Shown piece by piece: positions 559 through 62,685 of a stretch of DNA of 64,000 nucleotides. The DNA comes from Neospora caninum Liverpool. Its lineage: Eukaryota; Apicomplexa; Conoidasida; Eucoccidiorida; Sarcocystidae. A program made the translations under genes and the position numbers. The stretch spans positions 62,001 through 126,000 of the forward strand of contig NC_018394.1 in NCBI RefSeq assembly GCF_000208865.1, in the 5' to 3' direction. The first letter of the stretch is position 1. Each line of letters begins with the position of its first letter. The notes under the pieces were generated by a model. That model was not told the DNA's origin, made no database searches, and worked only from the letters and a program-made list of their open reading frames with translations.

Positions 559-3500
559 TCACTGCGGCGACTGATCCGTTCGGTGGGTCGCACGTGCCTC
601 TAGAGACGCCATGACGTTCGAGGCCAGCAAATCCTCCAAAATTGCCTGATCCCTCTTAAAGACCCCACGTGAGGCCTCGGTTCTAAGCAGAGGAACTTCA
701 ACGACCTTCATGACAATGTTGTGTAAGTCCCCGCCCCCACGACCATGCCCTGTCTCCCCTATCACGCTTCCTTTCTCGGTTCCCATTCCTCCTGTCTCTG
801 TTCCCACTCCTCCTGTCTCCCATTCCCTGCTCGCGATGCTGCTTCCGCCTTTGCTACCTCCGGCCACGACGGTACGCTCCTCCCCTCCGCCGGCGCACCC
901 TCTCAAAGCAGAGGCTGCCGACGCATTTGGAGAAGAAGAGGGAGAGGTAGAGGGGACAGACGAAGGAGATGAAGAAGGCGCGAGAAGGGAAGAAGTTTGC
1001 TTTTCGTCTGCTTGGTTCTTGGCGGCCTCTGTGTCAGCTTGGAGTGCGTTATTGAGGGTAGAGAAATCGACAGGGACTCCTTTGTTCCTCAGGAAGTTCA
1101 CCAGTTCCATGTTTTTTCCTTCTTCTCTCGTTAAAAGAACAAGCACATGAACTTTTGCCGGCTTCGTCGTTTTGAAGCGGCAAGCGCCTCCGTCTTCTTC
1201 CTCTCCACCTTCCGCCTCTCTGCTTGCTGCATCGACGTCGCCTTCACCCTCCTGCGCGTTGCAGCCCTCGTCCCTTGTTCTGTTTTCCTTTTCTTTTTCG
1301 ATGTGGTTCTCGATCACCTGAAAAAGCGTCTCGGTCCAGTTCACGAGACCCGGCTGAGAAGCCGCAACGACCTTGGCAAACCCTGCGGGCCACAACGAAC
1401 GACGAGGCACCCGTGAACGGCACGTTTCTTCGAGCGTATATGTACTGTGTCTCTCAAGTCACGCAAATGAGAACACCGCGTCTCTCACAAGGAACAAAGG
1501 TGGGACGTAGAAAAAACGATCAAAACGTATGTGTGGCCTTTTTCTCGCTTCTGCGCTTCACTTCGACACACCAAACCACGTGCGTGTTCGCTGTGGTCGG
1601 AAGCGTGCGTGACGATCAGCAAGAGAAACGACCGTGGCCCGGGGGAAAAGCAGAGACTGTGACCGGGCGAAACGAACCGGCAAGAAGCCGATAAAAAAGC
1701 ATCGGAAGGAACCCGCGAACAGCGCGAAACGTGGCTGTCTCCGTTCCTCCTGGTGACGTTGCCTTACCTGCGTGGCGGGCGGCGGCCGCAGTCGTCGGGC
1801 CGATCGCAAGAGCCACGAGTTTCTGCGCTTCGCGCTTCCGCCTTTTCTCTGCTTCGCGTCCTTCAATGAGGCTGCTCTTGCATTCCTCCAGCAGACGCAT
1901 AAAGTCTGCTTCCGTGGACAACACGTGGCTGATATCCGCGCGAGGCTGCGTCGTTCTCTCGGCTGACGCATGTGAGCCCTGAGGAGCCGGCGGAGAGGAA
2001 GAAAATGGAGAGGCAGGGGGAGAAGCGGAGGCAGACGAACGGCCGGACGACTTTTTTCGGCCAGGGGCCGTGATGATTTGCTTGGCTCCGGCGTGGATCG
2101 CTGTATACGAAGGAAACACCGGCGCATGCAGATGGGACTCTTCCAGAGGAAGTCCGTTCGCAACCCAGCTCCACACTGCGGACGGACTGGCGAGCATGAC
2201 AAAGGCCAGAGTGGCTGCGTCTTGCCCTTCCTCCCCTTTGGGTGCTTGCGTGTGCGCTTGCGATCCCTCGCGGTCTCGGGCTTCTTCGCCAGGCTGCTGT
2301 CCCCGTGCACGTGCTGCTTCCCCGCTTGTTGCCTGCGAGGTTTGTCCTGTTTCTCCTCCCCTCTCGGCACCCTCAAGCGTGGAGATCGTGCGCGGTGCGC
2401 CCGCACGTCCCGGGGCCTTCTGCCGCTCCGAAAGAGCCTTTCTGAGGGCGTCCAGCAACGCCTGCCTTTCTTCCAACGACAGCATCCGCTGCGTTGTGGT
2501 GTAGAGGTTCAAGCGCTGCAGGCGGAACAGAGGCAGCGACGCCCACGAACCGGTTTCGCTTCTCTCTCGTTTTTCACCCTCATCTGCGCCTCTTCCTGCC
2601 GTGTGCCTTTCTCTGCCTTCGGTCCTGCTGTCGCTTGGGCTCCCCCCTTCAAAGCCTCTTTGGGTTCTTTCCCCCCCTGCTTCACTAGATAAAGAAGCGT
2701 AGCCGTTTCCTTCTGACACCGAGGCGTGCTTTCGTGGGGACACACATGGAAGCTCGCTTCTGTGGATGCCTGCACGGTCCACGGCGTCGTCAATCCGCCC
2801 CTCGTTCGAGTGTATGTACACCTCATCAGCGTCGCTGTCCTCGGAGAGGCTTGGCTGGCCGCAGGCCCGCGGTGCCAAAGAAACGGACACATGTTTCGCG
2901 CCTAAAAGCGGGCCAAGTTCCCCCAGTTTCCTCTCCGCTAAAGTGACCGCAAGGCCCTCGGCAGCCAACGCGGAGGCTGGCCAAAGCACACGGGTTTGCA
3001 GCCAGCAAGGACAGCAAACAAAGGCACGGCGCCTGTCGGGGGGCCCGCACGACACTGCAATGCGCTGCGCTGGAGTGTACGTACACCAGGGATCGGCGTG
3101 ACCAACATCTTCCAAAGGTCCAGTGTGCTGTTCAGACACGTGCGTACCCCCCGCGCTGCTGCCAGAGACGAGATCTCGAGAATCTTCAGAGCCTTGCATA
3201 CAAAGAAAGGAAAAAATTGGGGGGCGTGGAGGCAAGTCAGCGGCGAGACTTGAGGCAGTAGCTACAGCAGGAGACCAGGGAGAGAAAAGTGTCCGAAGTG
3301 CATTCAAGGCGCTCTGTTTCTCATCGCCTGAAACATGCTGGGAGATGTGAGAAAACAGCACGCGTTCTCCCTGTCTCGCTTCTGTCGAAGCGCTTCCGCT
3401 TGGCGTTGCCTGTTTCTGAGGCAATCTCTGCTCATCAGCTCTGGACCTAAGACGCTGGCCTGACGCGCTCGAACCACGGTCCTCTCCTTCCACATTCGCG

Positions 3501-4729
3501 GCTGTCTCTCCTTCTCCATCCTCGGTGTTGTCCTTCCTGTCTGCCAGTCCACTCCCCGCTTCGTTCGCCTCTGCGTCCGCTTCTTTTTCTCGCTGGCGAC
3601 AGATTCGCAAAAAACCTGAAAGCAGCGTCTCTTCAGCAGCGCGTCGAGTGCCGTCGCCGACGCACACGATTGACCCTCGGGGCAGGCTGTCGAGACACCA
3701 GGAAGAAAACGACGGAGGAGCGACAGCACGAGAGAGAGACAGGGACGATAGAGAAGACGGAGACGTAGACGGCGAAGCAGGCAGTTCAGAGGCGCTAGAA
3801 GGAAGAAGAGAAGATAGCACGCGTTCCCAGCTGCGAGCCAAGACGCGCGCTGATTCCGGAGACGTGAGGCAAAGATAATCGCAAGAAAAAAACACGGCGG
3901 CCGCAGCAGGAGAAGCCGAGGGCTGACGCGTCGGAGACAGAGACGTGGGCGAAGAGGGGACAGGTGAAGAATGGACTGAAGGAGAGGGGGAAGAATACAA
4001 AACTGAAGAAGCCGAATCCCGATGCGGTGGCGAGACACCGGAGGACGAAGAGTGAGACAAAAGCGAGGAACGAGAGGGCAACGTTGACGACTGAAGAACG
4101 GAGGATCGGGAAAAGGGATGCATGCGCTGAAGCGGGGACAGAGCGCGACAGGCAACGTAGGAGGGAGAGGCGATCTCGAGGCGACACTGGAGACTGTGTT
4201 TGCGAGCGGGACCAGAAAAGAGAGACAAGAAAAGGCGCGAAGATCGAGGAAAGGAGCCCCGCGCGAAGGTGGGAAGCGAGGCGGAAGACGAAGGTGGGAG
4301 GGCGAGCGACAAGGAACTGCGCCACGAGCGCGAATCAAGAAAGGCTACACGTGAGGAAGAGGCCGAAAACAGAGGGGAAGAAGAACCCGAAGCGGCAGGA
4401 TGGAGAGGAGACAGAGGAGACTGAGGAGACAGAGAGAAACCAGTTGACAGGGGCTCAGCAGACGCTGGAGACACAAAAGGAAACCAGACGGGAGTTGAAA
4501 ACGCGGAAGGGGAACGGGGGCTGGCGTGGGCAGCGAGGGAGAAGGCGCCGGCTGGAGGAGTTGCAAGGACGGAGAGGGGAAGAAGAGCGAGAGGAGAGAG
4601 ACGGAGAAGAAACAGAACGGATGCTGAGACAGAGCGGCGTCTCGCGGACAAGAGTGCAAGCAAGCAGACAGAGGAGAAGATGCAGGATCTGTCGAGAAGA
4701 GAGGGGGGAAACGGCCAGGAAGGGTCCAT
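559..4729 (-). CDS. UROS: Uroporphyrinogen-III synthase (HemD/UROS), plastid-type leader, apparently permuted
   Basis: The enzyme closes hydroxymethylbilane with inversion of ring D to make uroporphyrinogen III. In Toxoplasma this step is placed in the apicoplast. Exons are 1768-4729 and 559-1382, joined by a phase-1 GT-AG intron (GCAG/GTAAGG to CCGCAG), giving 1,261 residues; the family usually has about 250-300. The first in-frame ATG is at 4729. Residues 1-60 hold two hydrophobic stretches around an Arg cluster, followed by a long Ser-rich, acid-poor region, as in a signal plus transit peptide. HemD landmarks in order are DYLCLTSPESARVL (about 284-297), SIVCVGDGTRRAAEE (about 353), the conserved Tyr in LNLYTTTQ (about Y743), FVMLASPSAVWSW (about 843) and ALAIGPTTAAAARHAG (973-988), then GFAKVVAASQPGLVNW after the splice. 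Acidic and Ser-rich insertions separate them. The usual N-terminal strand and helix are absent before residue 280, and a match lies at 1064-1092 (see findings). The identification is strong; the exact start is less certain. Confidence 0.85.
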
Positions 4730-6444
4730 GACGGGGGGAAAAGGACAGGAGACAGAACACGCCGAGGAATGCACAGGAGCAGAGGCAAGACGGGGATGGT
4801 GAGTGAAGAAGGGAGGCGGAAATGAGGAGGCGCGGAGGAGGAACTGCAGCCGATTGAGACGGGGTGGAAAGAAAGATTTCGTGAGATCGAAGGCGAGGAG
4901 ACCTGAGACGAAAGACCCAGGACAAGAACCGGAATTCACAGGGTCACACAGAAGGGGCTGCGTAGTACAGGCCGCATGCGACGAGGAGAGAAAAAGGGAG
5001 AAGGGAGACAAGACACGGGGGAAGACCACTGACGGAGACGAACGTTCGGCGGGCCAGCAAACACGAGGACCGGATGCCGATGCCGCCAGATGTGGATGCA
5101 GTGAAGACACCGCGAGAGCCCATCGAAGCCGACACCGAAAGAGAAAAGAAGGCGGGGAAGACGAGGCCACCTGGAGAAAAACGAGGAACCGCTCCCAAAG
5201 GAATTGCGGCACACCGCGAGACGGGGCTGCGGCGGAGACACGGCGAGAAGATAAACAGAACACACAAGCAAAGCGCGAAGTACAGCAGAAGAGGTTCTGC
5301 TGACCAAGAGAAGCAGGAAACTGGTGAAAAGCAAAGAGAGAAGGTGAGAGAGAGAATTATGCAGCAAAGGCAGCAGGAGAGAGAAAGAGGGGACAGGAAG
5401 CGATGACACGCACCTTGTCGAGCTGTACCGGGAAACCAGCGTCTCCGCTGTCTCTCCGCCGATACTCCCGAGAGCCGATTTTTCTTTTCTGTGCATGTGC
5501 ATGCGGACGAAACTTTTTGCAAAGAAGTCCATCCTTTACCCAGGTGTTTCGTCTCCACTCACGTCTCTCGTTTTCTCCTCGAAGTTGTCTTCTCTCCTTT
5601 CTTTGTAGAAGCGAACGAGCGCTCCACGTCCTTCACGGGAGTTCAACTGCGACAGGGGGACCTCAGCGAAAAGTAGCGAAAATTATCTCGCCGTTTTCCC
5701 CCAGTGTTTTCAAACGAAAAAGGAACCCAGAGAAGAATGCCTTGACGGAGACACGCGCCAGCGCGTCTCCGGTTGCTGGCCCTTTCTCGCTTTTCCCATT
5801 TTCCCAAGTCTCCGCCTGGTGAGAGTTCTCTTCGCTTTCCCGTTGCTTTTTCTCGGCCAACCAAGACTTGAGACCATCTGGCCGAGGCCGGACGAAAACG
5901 AAGCAGAGAGAAGCGCAAAACACGCGGCCTTTTCTTTCTTTTTTTCGTCGCCCCACTGCAAGGAAAATCTGGAGGAAAGAAGAGAGAGGAAGACAGAGAC
6001 AGGGGCGACGAGCACACAACTCGCGCGCGCGCGAAAACGTGCGATAACCCCACAACCGATGACTACGAAAAGACGGGGTGCGCATAACTCTCAAGCACGC
6101 AGGAGACAAAACGCCTCCAAGTTTTCCAGTTTGAGGTGACGAGATCCGCCCCGCCCGGATGCTGAAGTGGTGCATCTTTTTGCTGTCCAAGGAGACTAAC
6201 GCGGGGAGGCCTCTCAGAAATCTCTCGAAGCACAAGGCGTGAATGGCTCCTAAAACACATGTCAAGAAACGAGAAAGCCGGCCCCATACACGTCTAGAGA
6301 CCAAGGTTTACCTTTCATCTTTGGATTCAGGCGGCTTCCCAGGAGAAACCGCCCTTTTTGTTGCCGCTCTTTAGGTGTACCGGCATCGCCTCTCGGGCGT
6401 CGTATCTTCCGCCTCTTCCGGGCCTGTCTCTTTGACTGCTCGCC
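4730..6444. promoter_or_regulatory. Shared divergent promoter and 5' UTR region of UROS and PUS7
   Basis: This 1.7-kb spacer separates two divergent start codons, so it must carry the promoters and 5' leaders of both genes. It contains TGCATGC at 5498-5504, a motif known to be enriched in coccidian promoters. No TATA box is expected in this group and none is obvious. Open frames here have no domains and I take them as chance. Transcription starts cannot be placed from sequence. Confidence 0.45.
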
Positions 6445-9400
6445 ATGGATGCCGACCAGCCCCATGTTTCTTCTTCTCCCTTTTTCCCCTCACCGTCTTC
6501 CGGAGCGCGTCCTCCGTTCGTGGGCTCTGCACGCTCGTCTTCGCCTGGGAGTGGTCCTGGTCCCAAGAGAGATGACAAGCAAGTGAGCGAGCGCGCCATG
6601 CTGAGTCTCTCTGACTTCTCCCGCCGAGTGGGCATTTCGCAGTTTGTCGCGTCTCGCGTTTCGTTTTCTGGAAACGAAGTGGCGGAGACTCAAGACGCAA
6701 GGCAGCTTAGCTGCGTTGCTGTCGATGGGGAGACAGAGGGGCAAACAGCGGAACGGGAAGCAGACGACCTAGGCAGAGATGCGGGCGACGATCAAGGCGG
6801 GTTCTGGGGGTCTCTGAAGACTCTGTATGAGGACTTTCAGGTGTATGAACACTCCGAGTGGGACTGCACGTGCCTGCGTGAGCAACGCGAGTGCTCGCGC
6901 TGCATGCCGTCGCTCCCCAGAGGGAAACCGCTTTCGTCGCCCTCGTCCACTTCTTCCGATTCTTTCCTTCCTTCATCGGGCTGTGCCTCCGTCTCTCGTT
7001 CGGACGATTGTCAGAGGGACCCATCACCTCCCAGCAACGCGGAGACTTGCAAGTCGCTGAAAGACAGGGCGAACCTCACGGAAGGCAACCCGCAGCTTCG
7101 AGAGCCGTGCGCATTCGGCTGCTGGTGTCGGGCCTTCGGAGACAATCCAGAGACGGCGCCTCTTCGTCTGCCGTTCCTCGTCGATCCGTCAAAGTTGAGG
7201 AGACAGCGGGAAGAACACGAGCTTTCCGAGGCCGGGAGCCTGCAAATCGCCTCTTCGTTTCGCCTCTGGAGGACGGAAGCTCAGCGAGAGGCGGAGAGGG
7301 CGAGGCGAGGAGGCAACGCAGAGCCGCGCGGAGAGGAGGAAACGGGCGGGGAACGCGCCGACGGGACGGAGCAGGCAGGCGAGGCGAGAAATGTCAAACG
7401 AAGACGAGCGAATGCGTCGGCGGCGCACGCGCCGGCTGCAGATGAGAAGGGAAGTCAAGACGAGGAGAACAGCGGCATAGACACCAAAGGAGACGCTCCG
7501 GAGAGGAACGAGAACGAAGTGGGGAGGCAAGGGACTTTGTCCTGTGTTTCTGAGTTCGAAGTGCAAAATATCGAGGCCTTCGTTAGGGGCCTCGCATGGT
7601 GTTCTGAGGTGTACAGACACCACGTCGCAAATTTGCCAAAGGGGCTAGAAGCGAGCGGAGCGCATCTCGGTGAAGGGAGGCCGCAGGACTCTTTGCGCGA
7701 GGGGAAGAAGGGCGACAACGAGGACGATTTCTGGTTGCGACGAGCGACGCGAACAGCGGCTGAAGCTGAGAAGGCCGCGCATGTCTGCTCGTCAAGTCCG
7801 CCTCCTGTGCCTGCTTTCGTTGTGTCCCCCGCAGATTCGCAGCGACCGGTGAACGCTGAAAAACAAATTCTCTCACAATACGACCCTTCTAAGGCGCCCT
7901 GTCTCTGGATCCTGGGTGACCTCGCGGGCCTCCTTAGGGCGCAGTGCGAACTCAGGAGTGCCGCCGCGTCCAGTCCAGAGCAACGGGACAACGCATCGCC
8001 CCGTTCGCCTTGCTCGTCTCCCTCTGCCGTTCTTCCTTCTTTGGCTGAGTTACGGAAGGAGCTGCGAGGCGCCCTGCACGCCTTCGTTCGCGACCGTCTT
8101 CCCTTTCTCGTTTCTGAGTCGGCGACGCTGTTCTCGGCGAAGGCTGCAGCGGGCGGACGTCCTGGGGACGAGGGAAACGCTCGGCGAGGCGTAAAACGAG
8201 GAAGAGAGGACAATCCACTTGACGATGGTTCCAGCGATGAACAGACCGGAGCAGAGGGAAATGGGGAATCCGAACAAGAAAACGAACGGGGACAAGACGA
8301 GCGGAAGAACGAGGTGGGGGAGAATAAGAAGAGCACAAACACCAGCAGAGAGGAACTGAGTGCACTGCAAGGACTGCCTCCCACGAACCTGTCACTGCAG
8401 ATTGCGTTCATCTCTCGAGTTGTTGCCGCCAAAGAGACGGGGCTTGGCCAATCTATTTCGCCGGTGAAGGCGGATGCAGAAGCGGAGACCAAAACCGTTA
8501 AGGCGGATAGAGACGCGAACATCCTTGGAGGAAACGCCCACGAAGACGGACACGGGAACGAGAATGCACACGGGGATCAGAAGCAAATCGGTTATGGAGC
8601 GTCGCGGAATGGGCCGTGCGAGTCTCTCGCCGCATCGACGCGTTTCCCCTTCATCTCCCTCGGAGCTTGCTGGGCCCAACAGAGACGGGAGATCCTTCAG
8701 TTGAAGAAGGAAATTGAAGAAGAGTGCGTGCGACGGCGAAGCCTAGAAGGCAACGAACGAGCGCCAGCACTGAGGATGGCAACAGAGAATCGCCACTTGA
8801 TTTCGTTGTTGGAGGAGGCTGCGACGGAACCGCCTGGCGTGGCTGTGAAACTGACTCCCAAGCCCGAGTGTCGCCGGTTCCTCTTTCCGCCAGTTCTCTT
8901 CAGGTGTACAGACACCGCAAGCCGACAGCCGGACGTGTCTGGGGCGGCCCCCGCGACGAGTGCTTCTCTCGGCGGAGCGAGGAAGGACGGAGTCCAGCGA
9001 GGGGGGATGGGAAGGAACTCAGACGTCTGTATTCAGGCCGGTGTTTCTCGAGAAGAGAGACGAAAGTGCAGAAAGGAGATAGAAGCATTGCTCTTTCGCA
9101 GCCCGTGTGGACAGCAATCGTGTCACGAAACAGAAGAATTTGACAAGAAAAAGGCGGAACTGTTTGCTCGCCTCGCGTCGCACCCTGCTCTCTTGGATAT
9201 CCTTTTCGACCCATGCCGAGCTTCAGGGGGGACAAACAATTACGTCTCGGCTTCTTCCGGCGCTCGATGGCCAGCCGACCTCGGGATGTATCTACACTTC
9301 ATTCTCTTGAAAGTAAACCGCGATACATCGAATGCGCTACACAATATTGGCAGGGGACTGCGACGATACTTCCAAAGGTCTCTCGCTGTCGCTGGCACCA

Positions 9401-9810
9401 AGGACAAACGCGGAATCACCGTCCAGCGGTGCTCGGTTCACAAAGTAAGCAGTCGCAAATTCCCAACGTTTTGGCTTCTTTACACTGCGGACTTGTGTAC
9501 TGGGGCCACACTCCCATATATCTGCACATCTACCTACCTATATATATATTATTTATATATGTATACAGTTTTATGAGCTTCACCTGCTCAGCTTCCAGCG
9601 GGGTTGCTATCTGCAGGCGAGACCTTGCATATATATATATATATATATGTACGTATATGTGAGTTTATGTCAATGCTGTGCCATAGTCCGGCTCCCTCCC
9701 ATGCGGGTCGTACACGGTTTCTCAGAAGTGGACTGGAACAGCTGCGCGGTGTTAGACTTGCTGAACATTAAGTGTATTTAAACGGCTACGATTCCTATCT
9801 CACATATCTA

Positions 9811-60400: not shown

Positions 60401-62685
60401 ACCATATCCGTCGCTGCAGTGGCTGCGGAAGCTGCGTCGGAGCTTCCCGCGAACTGCTGATCCACACACTCCACAGCTGCTCCTCCCCCAGAAGGAAAAG
60501 CGCACAAAGCCCCGGACGAGAACGGACGCTCGCTTCCCGAAAGACCCGCGTCCACCATGTGGTTCTCGCGGGTATATGCGCGTAGGTTGGATCGAAAAAA
60601 CTCTGCTGTGGCGCCGTCCTCAACGGTCTCTCCGCCGGGCGATGCAGGGGAGAAAAGCGGATACGAATGGAGACGGGGCGCAAACGCAAGGCCGGAGTTG
60701 GACAGCAACCAGGACACGCTCGCCTCGCGTCCTTTTGCATGCCCCGCAGTGGCAGCCGTCAAACACGGCGCGCCGCCAGGAAGGTGACTCCGTCCTCCAC
60801 TCCCGGCTGCAGGCGGCAAAGACGCAGACAGCGACTTGGGTCCACGTACAGGCGAGTCTGCGAAGGCTGCTTCGTGCCCGCGTGCGCCACTCGCCGCGCG
60901 CTGCCCATCTTTCGCACAAGGCAGGTGTGCCCGGGAAGGCGCGGATTCGAAGGAATATGGAGACAAGAACGACGAGACCGAAGGCCTGTGTCCTAGAGGG
61001 CCCGTGTCGCCGTCTGGGGCAGACGGCGATCGACTCAAAGTGTCTCCGCCCTTCCTCACCGGCGCCCCCGTCTGTTGTCTGTCCAGAGCTGCCGCGGAGC
61101 CGCAGTCCCACCAAGCGGGGCTTTGAACGCGTCCCCGTCCTGCTTCTGAGGCGGCGCGTCCTTCAGCTTTCCCGACCTCGCCTCCCGAGGCTATTTCTTC
61201 GTCTCTGACAAAATCTTCCCTTCTGGTCTCTGCCCGTGCTTCTTTCACGCTCGCGAGCGCGGACGCGTGCGCATTCTGGAGCTGCTGCTTAATGGCATGT
61301 CGCTGACTCTCCGTCGAGCTAGCCAAAAACGAAGCAGCTGCGGCAGCTGTCCCGACAATAGACGCGAACGCGCTGTCTTTCGAGCGCGCGTGCCCCCAGG
61401 CCGAAACGGCGGGGTGCGCAGCCTGGTCCAGGACGGGCAGCGCACAGTGCGCGTGGCTCGGCACTAAAGACTGGAAAGAGAAGAAAGCATCTGAAGACCC
61501 CAAGGCGGAATGGAGTGCGTGCGACGGGGGCAAATGGGAAGGAGAGAGACAGGGATTCGGGTGTCCGGACACAGTGAAGCCACCGTCGCCCAGACTCAGG
61601 CTGCTCTGCCCCCGCCCTGCGTTGAACATGTGGCCTCCAAAGTGCTGCGCGTGAGAGGCAACGGGAGGGAGACTCTGGGCCCGAGCGAAAGGCGGCGCGG
61701 CGGCCGCCAGCGCCGTAGGGTGGAGTGCGAACAGGTGCGAAGAAGTGTAGTTACACCCGGGGCGCAGTTGAGAGGCCGGGACGGGGTGCTGGTGCTGAAG
61801 AAGCAGCAACTGTTGCTCCGTCAAACCGCCGCTTCCTGGCGGGGGAAGAAGGGGAGGCGGAAGCGGCCCCACGGGCGAACAGCGCACGCTCCCTGGGCCC
61901 CCGCCTGCCCCGCACGCGCGGAAGAGAGCAGGAAAGAAAGGCGTTGAGTTGGAGACGGCCGCGCCTCCGTACGGAAAAGCAGAAAAACTGCCTGAAGATG
62001 GCCCGTGGGCTTCAGCTGGAGGAAAGTCCGGAGCCAATCCACCAGGCGAATGCCCAGCGGACGCATGCAGGAGATGCGGGAACGGAAAGGAAGCAGGGTG
62101 AGGTGCCAAGCCGTGACCGTTTCCCTGCTGAGAGCTAGGAAAGGCCCACCAGGAAGGAGCACGCGGCTCGTTTCCCCGCTCGTCTCCGTCTGGGGCAGCA
62201 GGATGGCGGTCGCCTGCTTTGTCTTTTCCGGACGTTGTCGCGGACGCAAAAGAGCCGATAGGGTAGGACGCCGTGCGAAAAGGGAGTGTTCTTCCTGGGG
62301 CCTCGCTGGAACCACAGACAAATTCGGAGACGATAAGATCCCAGCTGGTTGCCCCAGCGTGCCGCTCGCCGCATGCAAGACGGAAGAACCCCGGCACGAC
62401 AATCGAAAGAGGAATATCGAGAAGAAGAGCGAGGATGCTTTTCGGGGGCGTCCCGCCGTTCGCCTCGCTTCGCGCATCTTCGTCTTGGGAGGATTCGCAC
62501 ACTCGGAGGCATATGCTGTCGGGTTGGAGAGTCTGCAGAGGCTCGGGCAGCAGCTCCTGCACGGACTGTCTCCCGGTGAGACTGTCGTCTTCCTCCGCTT
62601 TCTCGCCGCCGTCGCTCTCCTCTTCCCACTCTGCTCTCGGCGTCCGCGTGTAGGTGCCTGAGCATCGGACACAACGGGACAACAT
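54442..62685 (-). CDS. 2,747-residue protein of unknown function
   Basis: One uninterrupted frame runs from an ATG at 62685 to a TGA at 54442. I recognise no catalytic or binding domain. The N-terminal third has a hydrophobic segment (ILALLLDIPLSIVVPGFF, about 84-101) and then Pro/Ser/His/Gly-rich low complexity. Conserved-looking islands follow: LVYVDAQNLQIHSKPPQLFF and a basic helix (MQRHIRRRRLRLLMRSY), a helical stretch (LRTLLRNEEAKSVYLRAQL), a helical region around VRERQIEEAMQFLSLTRED, and a Cys cluster (GTCCCRCGLAQRE). The extreme C-terminus holds the longest hydrophobic run (VAVFAHIVLLLPAKILVAVA) followed by a Gln/Leu/Arg helix. Long Glu/Gly/Arg-rich segments lie between islands. The islands suggest a structured scaffold inside disordered sequence. 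In-frame introns cannot be excluded, and further exons may lie upstream. Confidence 0.78.
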   Translation of the reverse strand: MLSRCVRCSGTYTRTPRAEWEEESDGGEKAEEDDSLTGRQSVQELLPEPLQTLQPDSICLRVCESSQDEDARSEANGGTPPKSILALLLDIPLSIVVPGFFRLACGERHAGATSWDLIVSEFVCGSSEAPGRTLPFRTASYPIGSFASATTSGKDKAGDRHPAAPDGDERGNEPRAPSWWAFPSSQQGNGHGLAPHPASFPFPHLLHASAGHSPGGLAPDFPPAEAHGPSSGSFSAFPYGGAAVSNSTPFFPALFRACGAGGGPGSVRCSPVGPLPPPLLPPPGSGGLTEQQLLLLQHQHPVPASQLRPGCNYTSSHLFALHPTALAAAAPPFARAQSLPPVASHAQHFGGHMFNAGRGQSSLSLGDGGFTVSGHPNPCLSPSHLPPSHALHSALGSSDAFFSFQSLVPSHAHCALPVLDQAAHPAVSAWGHARSKDSAFASIVGTAAAAASFLASSTESQRHAIKQQLQNAHASALASVKEARAETRREDFVRDEEIASGGEVGKAEGRAASEAGRGRVQSPAWWDCGSAAALDRQQTGAPVRKGGDTLSRSPSAPDGDTGPLGHRPSVSSFLSPYSFESAPSRAHLPCAKDGQRAASGARGHEAAFADSPVRGPKSLSASLPPAAGSGGRSHLPGGAPCLTAATAGHAKGREASVSWLLSNSGLAFAPRLHSYPLFSPASPGGETVEDGATAEFFRSNLRAYTRENHMVDAGLSGSERPFSSGALCAFPSGGGAAVECVDQQFAGSSDAASAATAATDMVLACNSFLRCIDTRSKTLVYVDAQNLQIHSKPPQLFFLQQEILSAVLRKGLQAFIAKYADELQMKMQRHIRRRRLRLLMRSYVQPIGLVEMPAEVNGGNDDGVNDRKRGEEDGKAWRERPGGNAKAEDGEKRGLPVKDECARGRGEDVDHEYDESEGLKADTQGNVEATSVSGWKQKDKRLGENPGDGKKEMRRMNSEGSREEDEAAEMDWPDGENRWCSPARHKAAEVVVIGAEAKTPRRIIDTGRRGEEGQAARGPTPATWRTEADATGSPKAENKKLWPVEGIFLKTSRHTVEAGGASNLRRRLRHSMPRQPAGFVRTPGRFPKPLTRRASAASSFERSSPLSHSPSSLRSLSCPAASFAAGCPLRKEPKRTESPLDCLAAAPRHEAGIIGDRAGSLQAEGAEGGGGERDQEKRGLSVGVQTVEGQQTRHGLEQDETEGAEVVPQDETIPCSPGMHTSSSYTDSLVGWPDSETPSFGRSWDSDDDAGDRCLTETHLRTLLRNEEAKSVYLRAQLADAQRSVFGPCAEDHGVVGTRKNECWPLSCARNWGSSSCVSPFDLTIALASPLGRRLAAVVGRTPAPQSGSSLCGVSVSLPSTSAEREDAKLLLEERTGSNVSRSRRLTHNLGAERITKNAMYAEAGSFVNGECLLDGPPTLRTLLARVAEQQRAVQAQIESQQTVLHTWRSAAEACVRERQIEEAMQFLSLTREDATRLILHTDQGLALYDAFCAQAQALRRSECGRDCGWRATVEGTEARDDGRYQRLNREGTPREKDLLHTRDEHVWKQDEAAGVERPGSLYAGTPSPRSEESRNGESEPRRETEEIHGSEGSDGACTNGSIMHMDPPMAAQGNDEVELKDAVNEDGGENAAFEDVRAAEKAEEAEALQTPPERLTEKTAGGCERENTEEAAEKAKAQRGAQMCYSCREFEGCSSGVDASQGWPDPVRSKDSNDTLFTVAASLCLVTGTRGLAEPSRGGADPTPENPRGQALHAKFAELENAWLQSWKRTWQTHWESMTPASGRYVFDSGSLRSGSQGSDTDSVAPVDEDGNAEPPGERRAEHGAASRDDLETGSPDAGQAPKSSHHDTTGISRWKGQQLFDEGGKTQPATSGSDQAKAATPRSGLRAAATASSPRDFSQARGGRPVAEPNFPSSLSLTWGKRGEAGARRAQPLSVEDSWLNEEEDGTPALWWLVPKGTCCCRCGLAQREMALSCLGDLVPLSRGLREEARKRAEAAEAAAEAAASLASAVAGSCLAPQGSNTLWERDMAPRSCQEDARFRAPVRHSLNHAACDGVTNSGGLEGGRRSAGGSDGDRARLARLPHTQGETAERYAALGQTGLTDSNDWGSQGGAWGTSGQREGFSPELPSLLSRSVQPSHALGDTKKEKGRCPRAPTETKGDTEEEGSGTDRSGQGHRSWNQRDEKDAGSAWVSRDAANARAEEGNGNGEFGKDAGRKESERMQQSFVSPSPPVVPLVSGSPSVPPGCAHVTLSQQLAPSARPPERCGSGLMCPPRPELRPSPLSTVTSSRLATRGVQTGSLLSESRPSVYAPSSAVPAPSGGNPPDGAAGSSAAPEGDAGDSFHSQQDTSVAAAAVRPPGMPRVGVKSDSTASDEGARKTDAHPPRRVSLELQRTDEHRRLRQDGFLAQAERELRENVGGGPRPEADAQGRSSSAADRSYCQCHASPEEGGSGLLYWGGVVYSPVSTSSRTSSSPVSPIAEADHIEAPGSKTAEETSLALSKTALSDTRKDSQRIGGRAEVRKSAPEPWTQGAPVCHQKIPHTTGPCAIPKSPPKRLWTDRWSPAFTAQTPPSNTAETSAGRDPVKAKSHETAAQQRISLLAAGRMARHLELVNEDTVAVFAHIVLLLPAKILVAVAPPFFEFLFALRDVWCRDLLLLPPKGQPSLMLNQSQHQLQQELHKQQAYRETVLQPLVSQRLRQLLALALRRYHLYRKHKKARQPYKLEDIIPRGGAQCPKSLRESATMQ

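Follow-up and report, generated by a model that had tools for sequence, protein, structure and literature searches.

A predicted circularly permuted uroporphyrinogen-III synthase in Neospora caninum and other coccidia

In the 64,000-nucleotide stretch of Neospora caninum Liverpool DNA analyzed here (the window; positions 62,001 to 126,000 of contig NC_018394.1), a minus-strand gene at 559–4729 specifies a 1,261-residue protein related to uroporphyrinogen-III synthase (UROS). We conclude, with a probability of roughly 0.85, that this gene encodes the coccidian apicoplast UROS, a predicted enzyme with a domain that has been circularly permuted in nature. The first strand and helix of canonical UROS (VLVLLTREEGKN) are absent from the front of the domain and sit behind the C-terminal helix, in the same exon, where they are followed by a VPLL strand and a further helix. 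Three lines of evidence, from sequence comparison and modeling, agree in supporting a permutation: profile alignment to a doubled reference, residues specific to particular slots of the fold, and a model of the C-terminal piece built without N-terminal UROS rows. A sequence-only reading had proposed that the N-terminal segment was moved, in order, to the end, and each of these lines, together with the same arrangement in five of five coccidian proteins, upholds it.

Evidence for the permuted order

The whole-body, doubled-reference, and signature-residue comparisons below use 30 reference proteins: 29 proteobacterial UROS (two of them enterobacterial) and human UROS. The reference loci were the best-scoring of the 98 genomes with a match to the UROS family HEM4, plus the two enterobacterial ones. 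From 32 loci (L075–L106), 29 were used; a filter that required [TS]R[PAE] among residues 1–25 removed L100 and L106, and L105, which has a shorter flank, was omitted. Because all three of these have the TR pair, no TR-less reference was lost.

Past a leader and Ser/Pro-rich sequence (residues 1–283; 3881–4729), the chain runs through CDYLCLTSPESA, SIVCVGDGT, a helix, TRVLWPASALAAEGL, LPLFRLQRLNLYTT with its helix, FVMLASPSAVWSWV, and LVALAIGPTTAAAARHAG, which is joined to FAKVV and the C-terminal helix. It then continues through an acidic linker (1156–1302, 13–29% identical between species) to VHVLVLLTREEGKNMELVNFLRNKG, a low-complexity insert, VMKVVEVPLLRTE with its helix, and the stop. We call the two homologous halves of the fold repeats A and B. 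In repeat A, the TSP strand and helix (3815–3880; human ~56–75) score 22.6 by hhalign, as a block of orthologues, at profile positions 52–69, a score that none of 200 column shuffles reached; the VGDGT strand and helix (3617–3676; human VVGNATA) score 14.5 (4 of 200 shuffles). The RVLWP strand and helix (2912–3007; human LLFPCGNLKREIL) were matched by 1 shuffle in 200, the IYTT strand and the next helix (2426–2539) by 7, and the helix block ATAAR by 25. In repeat B, the exon-1 part of the AIGPTT strand (1768–1822) scores 36.1 (0 of 200) and is also supported by the Pfam HEM4 match at profile positions 191–230, and the GFAKVV strand with the usual C-terminal helix, which form the exon-2 part (1303–1382), are placed by Pfam HEM4 and by the block and whole-body profile alignments. 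The LASPS strand and helix (2144–2209; human TFFSPSG) are not significant alone (70 of 200) and are placed by the whole-body alignment and by a serine found in 30/30 references and 5/5 coccidian proteins.

The tail beyond the acidic linker has two parts. The first, strand 1 and helix 1 (KVHVLVLLTREEGKNMELVNFLRNKG onward; 1054–1155), scores 25.4 against the bacterial UROS profile and was equaled by none of 200 column shuffles (mean 10.2, maximum 16.4); its placement also draws on the junction alignment, conservation, the model, and signature residues. The second, strand 2 (VMKVVEVPLLRTE) and helix 2 (616–720), is not significant by profile alone, as 130 of 200 shuffles reach its score, and is placed by its conservation, its P34 signature, and the C-terminal-piece model. 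The sequence-only reading had placed the moved part in domain 1. The segment, which comprises strand 1, helix 1, strand 2, and in all probability helix 2 (roughly human 1–52), is more than a piece of that domain, and a low-complexity insert of ~110 residues (721–1053, 10–41% identical between species) lies inside it.

The most direct argument for a permutation comes from the doubled reference. Aligned in their natural order without linkers, the coccidian blocks cover human residues 56–258 (score 62.6, probability 95.6). When the UROS reference is doubled, the same alignment passes through the C-to-N junction and on to human residue 29, and the score rises to 77.8. This gain of 15.2 was not reached by any of 150 shuffled tails (maximum 8.0) or of 100 tails swapped for other stretches of the same proteins (maximum 6.1). 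Both homologous halves of UROS are thus present with their elements, the body matching human 56–258 and the tail 1–29 across the junction, and the elements are those of UROS, cyclically shifted with the old ends joined. Other searches were less sensitive. When the coccidian protein was compared in its natural order with the PDB, neither single-sequence nor profile searches retrieved any UROS. A hidden Markov model (HMM) of the UROS N terminus did not place the tail among its top ten matches in the six frames of the window and had no match in the spliced 1,261-residue protein; it picked the tail as its best match in each of the five annotated coccidian proteins, with weak scores. Pfam and NCBIfam scans of five isolated tail pieces gave no UROS match, only weak unrelated ones.

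In UROS the strand-helix unit occurs in two homologous versions, at the N terminus and internally, and the tail could in principle correspond to either. Taken alone, the tail unit scores somewhat higher in the internal slot (25.2) than in the N-terminal slot (21.2, reached by 0 of 100 shuffles). The RVLWP block, however, scores 15.9 in the internal slot and 8.7 in the N-terminal slot, and because it fits the internal unit and not the N-terminal one, the best joint assignment gives the N-terminal slot to the tail. NCBIfam PRK05928 likewise places the Besnoitia RVLWP block at profile positions 118–150, the internal position, in a match that falls far short of the model's cut-off (E = 0.019); a PRK05928 scan of the Toxoplasma gondii copy gave no match. 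Signature residues settle the slots. The TR pair occurs in the N-terminal slot of 28/30 references and in the internal slot of none, and it is present in all five coccidian tails. P34 in the N-terminal slot and Y168 in the internal slot are invariant, each in 30/30 references; the proline lies in the coccidian tail (3/3) and the tyrosine, on the IYTT strand, in the coccidian body (5/5).

The third line of evidence is structural. The C-terminal piece was modeled with an alignment (A6) in which the bacterial pieces started no earlier than the IGPTT strand and which had no N-terminal UROS rows; two earlier alignments (A4 and A5) had been set aside because strand A was out of register. UROS structures were the best matches to this model, occupying ranks 1–9 in the second structural comparison. 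The VPLL strand and the following helix appear at low confidence. The model suggests that the tail completes a UROS half domain. The full-length model was too poor to use; its structural matches were mostly dehydrogenase folds, with 6TH8 the sole UROS-derived row among the matches listed.

The arrangement is conserved. Protein searches yielded five proteins, the window's own included, from Neospora, T. gondii, Hammondia, Besnoitia, and Cystoisospora. The LTRE strand-helix lies behind the C-terminal helix in all five, and VPLL comes next in the three whose models extend that far; the Hammondia model ends ahead of VPLL, and the Cystoisospora protein, marked partial, also has no VPLL. (The source of the latter, P0005 of Cystoisospora suis, calls it "transmembrane protein, partial.") Identity between species is 39–72% for the tail strand-helix, 53–84% for the VPLL-helix piece (three pairs), 37–85% for the body blocks, and 10–53% for the linkers, ranges taken from 5 of the 10 species pairs, with Hammondia pairs not among them and with Neospora represented by its annotated protein, which is without the first 510 residues. 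The tail pieces are therefore as conserved as the UROS body, unlike the linkers. No Eimeria, Sarcocystis, Plasmodium, or chromerid protein was among the matches, but because each protein search scored only ~7,990 candidates, this is no evidence of absence from those lineages.

Gene structure and family membership

The gene has two exons on the minus strand. Exon 1 (4729–1768) carries the leader, repeat A, and early repeat B, and exon 2 (1382–559) carries the C-terminal helix, the acidic linker, the moved N-terminal segment, and the stop codon. The intron (1767–1383) is bounded by GT and AG, and its removal joins the two parts of the ARHAG/FAKVV motif. The annotated Neospora protein P0001, named a conserved hypothetical protein, is identical to residues 511–1261 of the spliced product and thus has the same splice. 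These observations bear out the two-exon, 1,261-residue product of the sequence-only reading, and its landmarks fall where it had put them: the TSP segment at residue 284, GFAKVV at 988, VHVLVLLTREEGKN at 1065, and VVEVPLL at 1214. Met codons in the exon-2 frame begin only at 1110, downstream of the VLVLLTR strand; with no Met ahead of it, this strand cannot belong to a separate gene that starts at an ATG in the same frame and must be read through from the UROS body.

P0001 starts at residue 511 (window position 3199), so that the annotation omits the leader and the beginning of repeat A (3199–4729, minus strand). The Toxoplasma and Hammondia models begin far upstream, and by eye their leaders resemble the Neospora leader starting at 4729. 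The low-complexity linkers between fold elements (721–1302, 1919–2074, and 2540–2911) stretch the coccidian UROS to about five times the usual length. An open reading frame on the plus strand (6436–9576) is the divergent upstream neighbor; close to its end it matches the tRNA pseudouridine synthase D family, TruD (E = 4.7e-8). The window belongs to contig C9, one of 14 that make up the 57.5-Mb genome.

By family profile, four of the five coccidian proteins score above the curated 27.5-bit cut-off of Pfam HEM4 (PF02602; 28.3–33.7 bits) and P0001 falls just under it (26.7 bits), the match covering profile positions 191–230 only. In a single bacterial phylum, 98 of 100 genomes have a HEM4 match, and most among the matches listed span nearly the whole profile in one stretch and in the normal order. 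Five positions invariant in the 30 references (P34, S63, G100, Y168, and S197 in human numbering, matched by motif) are kept in the coccidian proteins: P34 in 3/3 proteins that extend to it, S63 and G100 in 4/4, and Y168 and S197 in 5/5. The canonical order begins with the N-terminal TR strand; because this strand stands behind the C-terminal helix in all five coccidian proteins, we class them as a permuted variant and not as ordinary members of the family. Compared with structurally known HemD/HEM4 proteins (human 1JR2, Pseudomonas 4ES6 and 3RE1, Thermus 1WCX and 3D8R), they share the same strand-helix elements, the two halves, and the invariant P, S, G, Y, and S, but carry the N-terminal strand-helix-strand-helix at the C terminus and are longer by ~1,000 residues, which make up the leader and the low-complexity linkers.

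A second point of comparison is cU3Sd (6TH8, "Reconstructing the Origins of the HemD-like fold"), a single UROS half that is among the structural matches of the coccidian models. Its sequence matches Escherichia coli HemD from the internal unit through the C terminus. We take cU3Sd, from its title, to be an engineered laboratory construct. It is one half with the strand-helix unit in front, whereas the coccidian protein occurs in nature, comprises both halves, and carries the unit at the end. Our searches of open-licence full texts brought up no description of a natural UROS permutation.

Alternative explanations

Several other readings of the gene have to be weighed. The strongest is that the permuted protein is a diverged, non-catalytic paralogue and that a canonical UROS gene elsewhere makes the enzyme. 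A 2025 study (PMC11873192) lends this some weight, as it calls the T. gondii gene TGGT1_264200 hypothetical and describes deletion of a gene named UROS as if it were distinct. Against it, the invariant P, S, G, Y, and S positions are kept, and no second UROS was found in the Neospora genome by searches that are weak and also miss the window gene. A HEM4 family search gave no match at E values up to 10, and one with the bacterial N-terminal half gave a best E of 0.861, both being weak for split, diverged genes and missing the gene described here; human UROS, also weak for split genes, gave a best E of 0.308 at a locus that, searched again, returned only chance-level values (0.39 and 1.2). We regard the paralogue as unlikely.

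Second, the tail may be a third strand-helix copy derived from the internal repeat, at the RVLWP position, with the true N-terminal segment lost. Such a chain would still work as a permuted domain, and its origin would be a segment duplication. The higher internal-slot score of the tail (25.2 versus 21.2) and the homology of the two UROS halves are what one would expect in this case, but the tails carry the TR pair that no reference has in its internal slot, and the strand after the tail unit bears the P of the N-terminal slot and not the Y of the internal one in all three proteins that extend there. This makes a third copy distinctly improbable. Third, the tail could be an unrelated strand-helix domain, or a separate gene or read-through product, with no part in the UROS fold. 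Long low-complexity linkers ease accidental fusions, and the VPLL piece alone has no significant profile match. A chance appendage would nevertheless have to contain exactly the segment that the UROS body is without, match its profile as no shuffle did (0/200), extend the alignment across the junction as no control did (0/150 and 0/100), occupy the same place in five of five proteins, and do so with no Met ahead of its strand in the exon-2 frame; we consider this very improbable. Finally, a normal N-terminal segment might be present in the leader, which would make the tail an extra. In favor of this, a 14-column stretch of orthologue leaders scores 12.4 against the N-terminal slot, a score reached by 1 of 60 shuffles. 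That stretch, however, is near the start of the leader and spans slot positions 19–32 only, the tail scores 21.2 (0 of 100), and the Besnoitia protein, the shortest complete one of the set, has only 58 residues ahead of FDYMCLSSP. We give this reading almost no likelihood.

Predicted function, origin, and meaning

For the circular permutant, which we thus favor, the following scheme may be envisaged. The leader would direct the protein to the apicoplast. Past the leader, the chain would open at the TSP strand of lobe 2 (human ~56), pass through lobe 2, lobe 1, and the usual C-terminal helix, and beyond the acidic linker would provide what normally stands at the N terminus: a strand, a helix, the ladder strand, and helix 2 (human ~1–52). 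The tail would insert into lobe 1 and form its first strand and helix, while the VPLL strand would join the interlobe ladder and the final helix would belong to lobe 2; this assignment of the tail elements to lobes and ladder is our presumption. The moved elements are expected to occupy their canonical positions in both lobes, so that the active-site cleft would be preserved together with its tyrosine. Hydroxymethylbilane could then be closed in the cleft and ring D inverted, with catalysis as in other UROS and a role in heme synthesis. A possible active-site tyrosine of UROS has been reported (PMC7242693), and we infer that it is the invariant tyrosine kept in the coccidian body. T. gondii TGGT1_264200 is assigned to the apicoplast by LOPIT and is among the proteins reduced upon loss of the organelle (PMC11873192); the orthologue P0002 carries the same number (264200) in another T. 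gondii strain.

The position of the break bears on origin. In canonical UROS, half A (human 53–190) aligns with a rotated half B (191–260 followed by 1–52) over 105 columns (score 72.5, E = 2e-12), whereas the best alignment with half B in normal order covers 66 columns at a score of 59.6. The better fit of the rotated half indicates that canonical UROS is itself a rotated tandem repeat. The coccidian order, by sequence, is repeat A and then repeat B, with the break at the internal repeat boundary of UROS, and it is therefore a plain tandem A-B. The HemD-like fold has been proposed to come from a flavodoxin-like ancestor via segment swap, duplication, and fusion (Toledo-Patino 2019, as described in PMC8250049). 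The tandem-repeat ancestor and the coccidian protein both have two homologous halves, in the latter in plain tandem order, but the ancestor is hypothetical. The coccidian permutation is probably secondary, happening to restore the plain repeat order, and may have arisen when the gene was duplicated in frame and in tandem and its outer ends were then lost. A more tentative proposal, which we think possible but doubtful, is that the permutation is older than the coccidia and that the Plasmodium UROS is a protein of the same A-B order, invisible to order-dependent sequence searches. On this view the permuted enzyme would re-create, in a living lineage, the plain tandem order that may have given rise to the HemD-like fold.

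It would be surprising to find an enzyme at the core of tetrapyrrole synthesis circularly permuted in nature, and such a permutation could explain why UROS has been hard to recognize in Neospora, Toxoplasma, and related parasites. With its break at the repeat boundary, a permuted UROS also has a bearing on the origin of the HemD-like fold.

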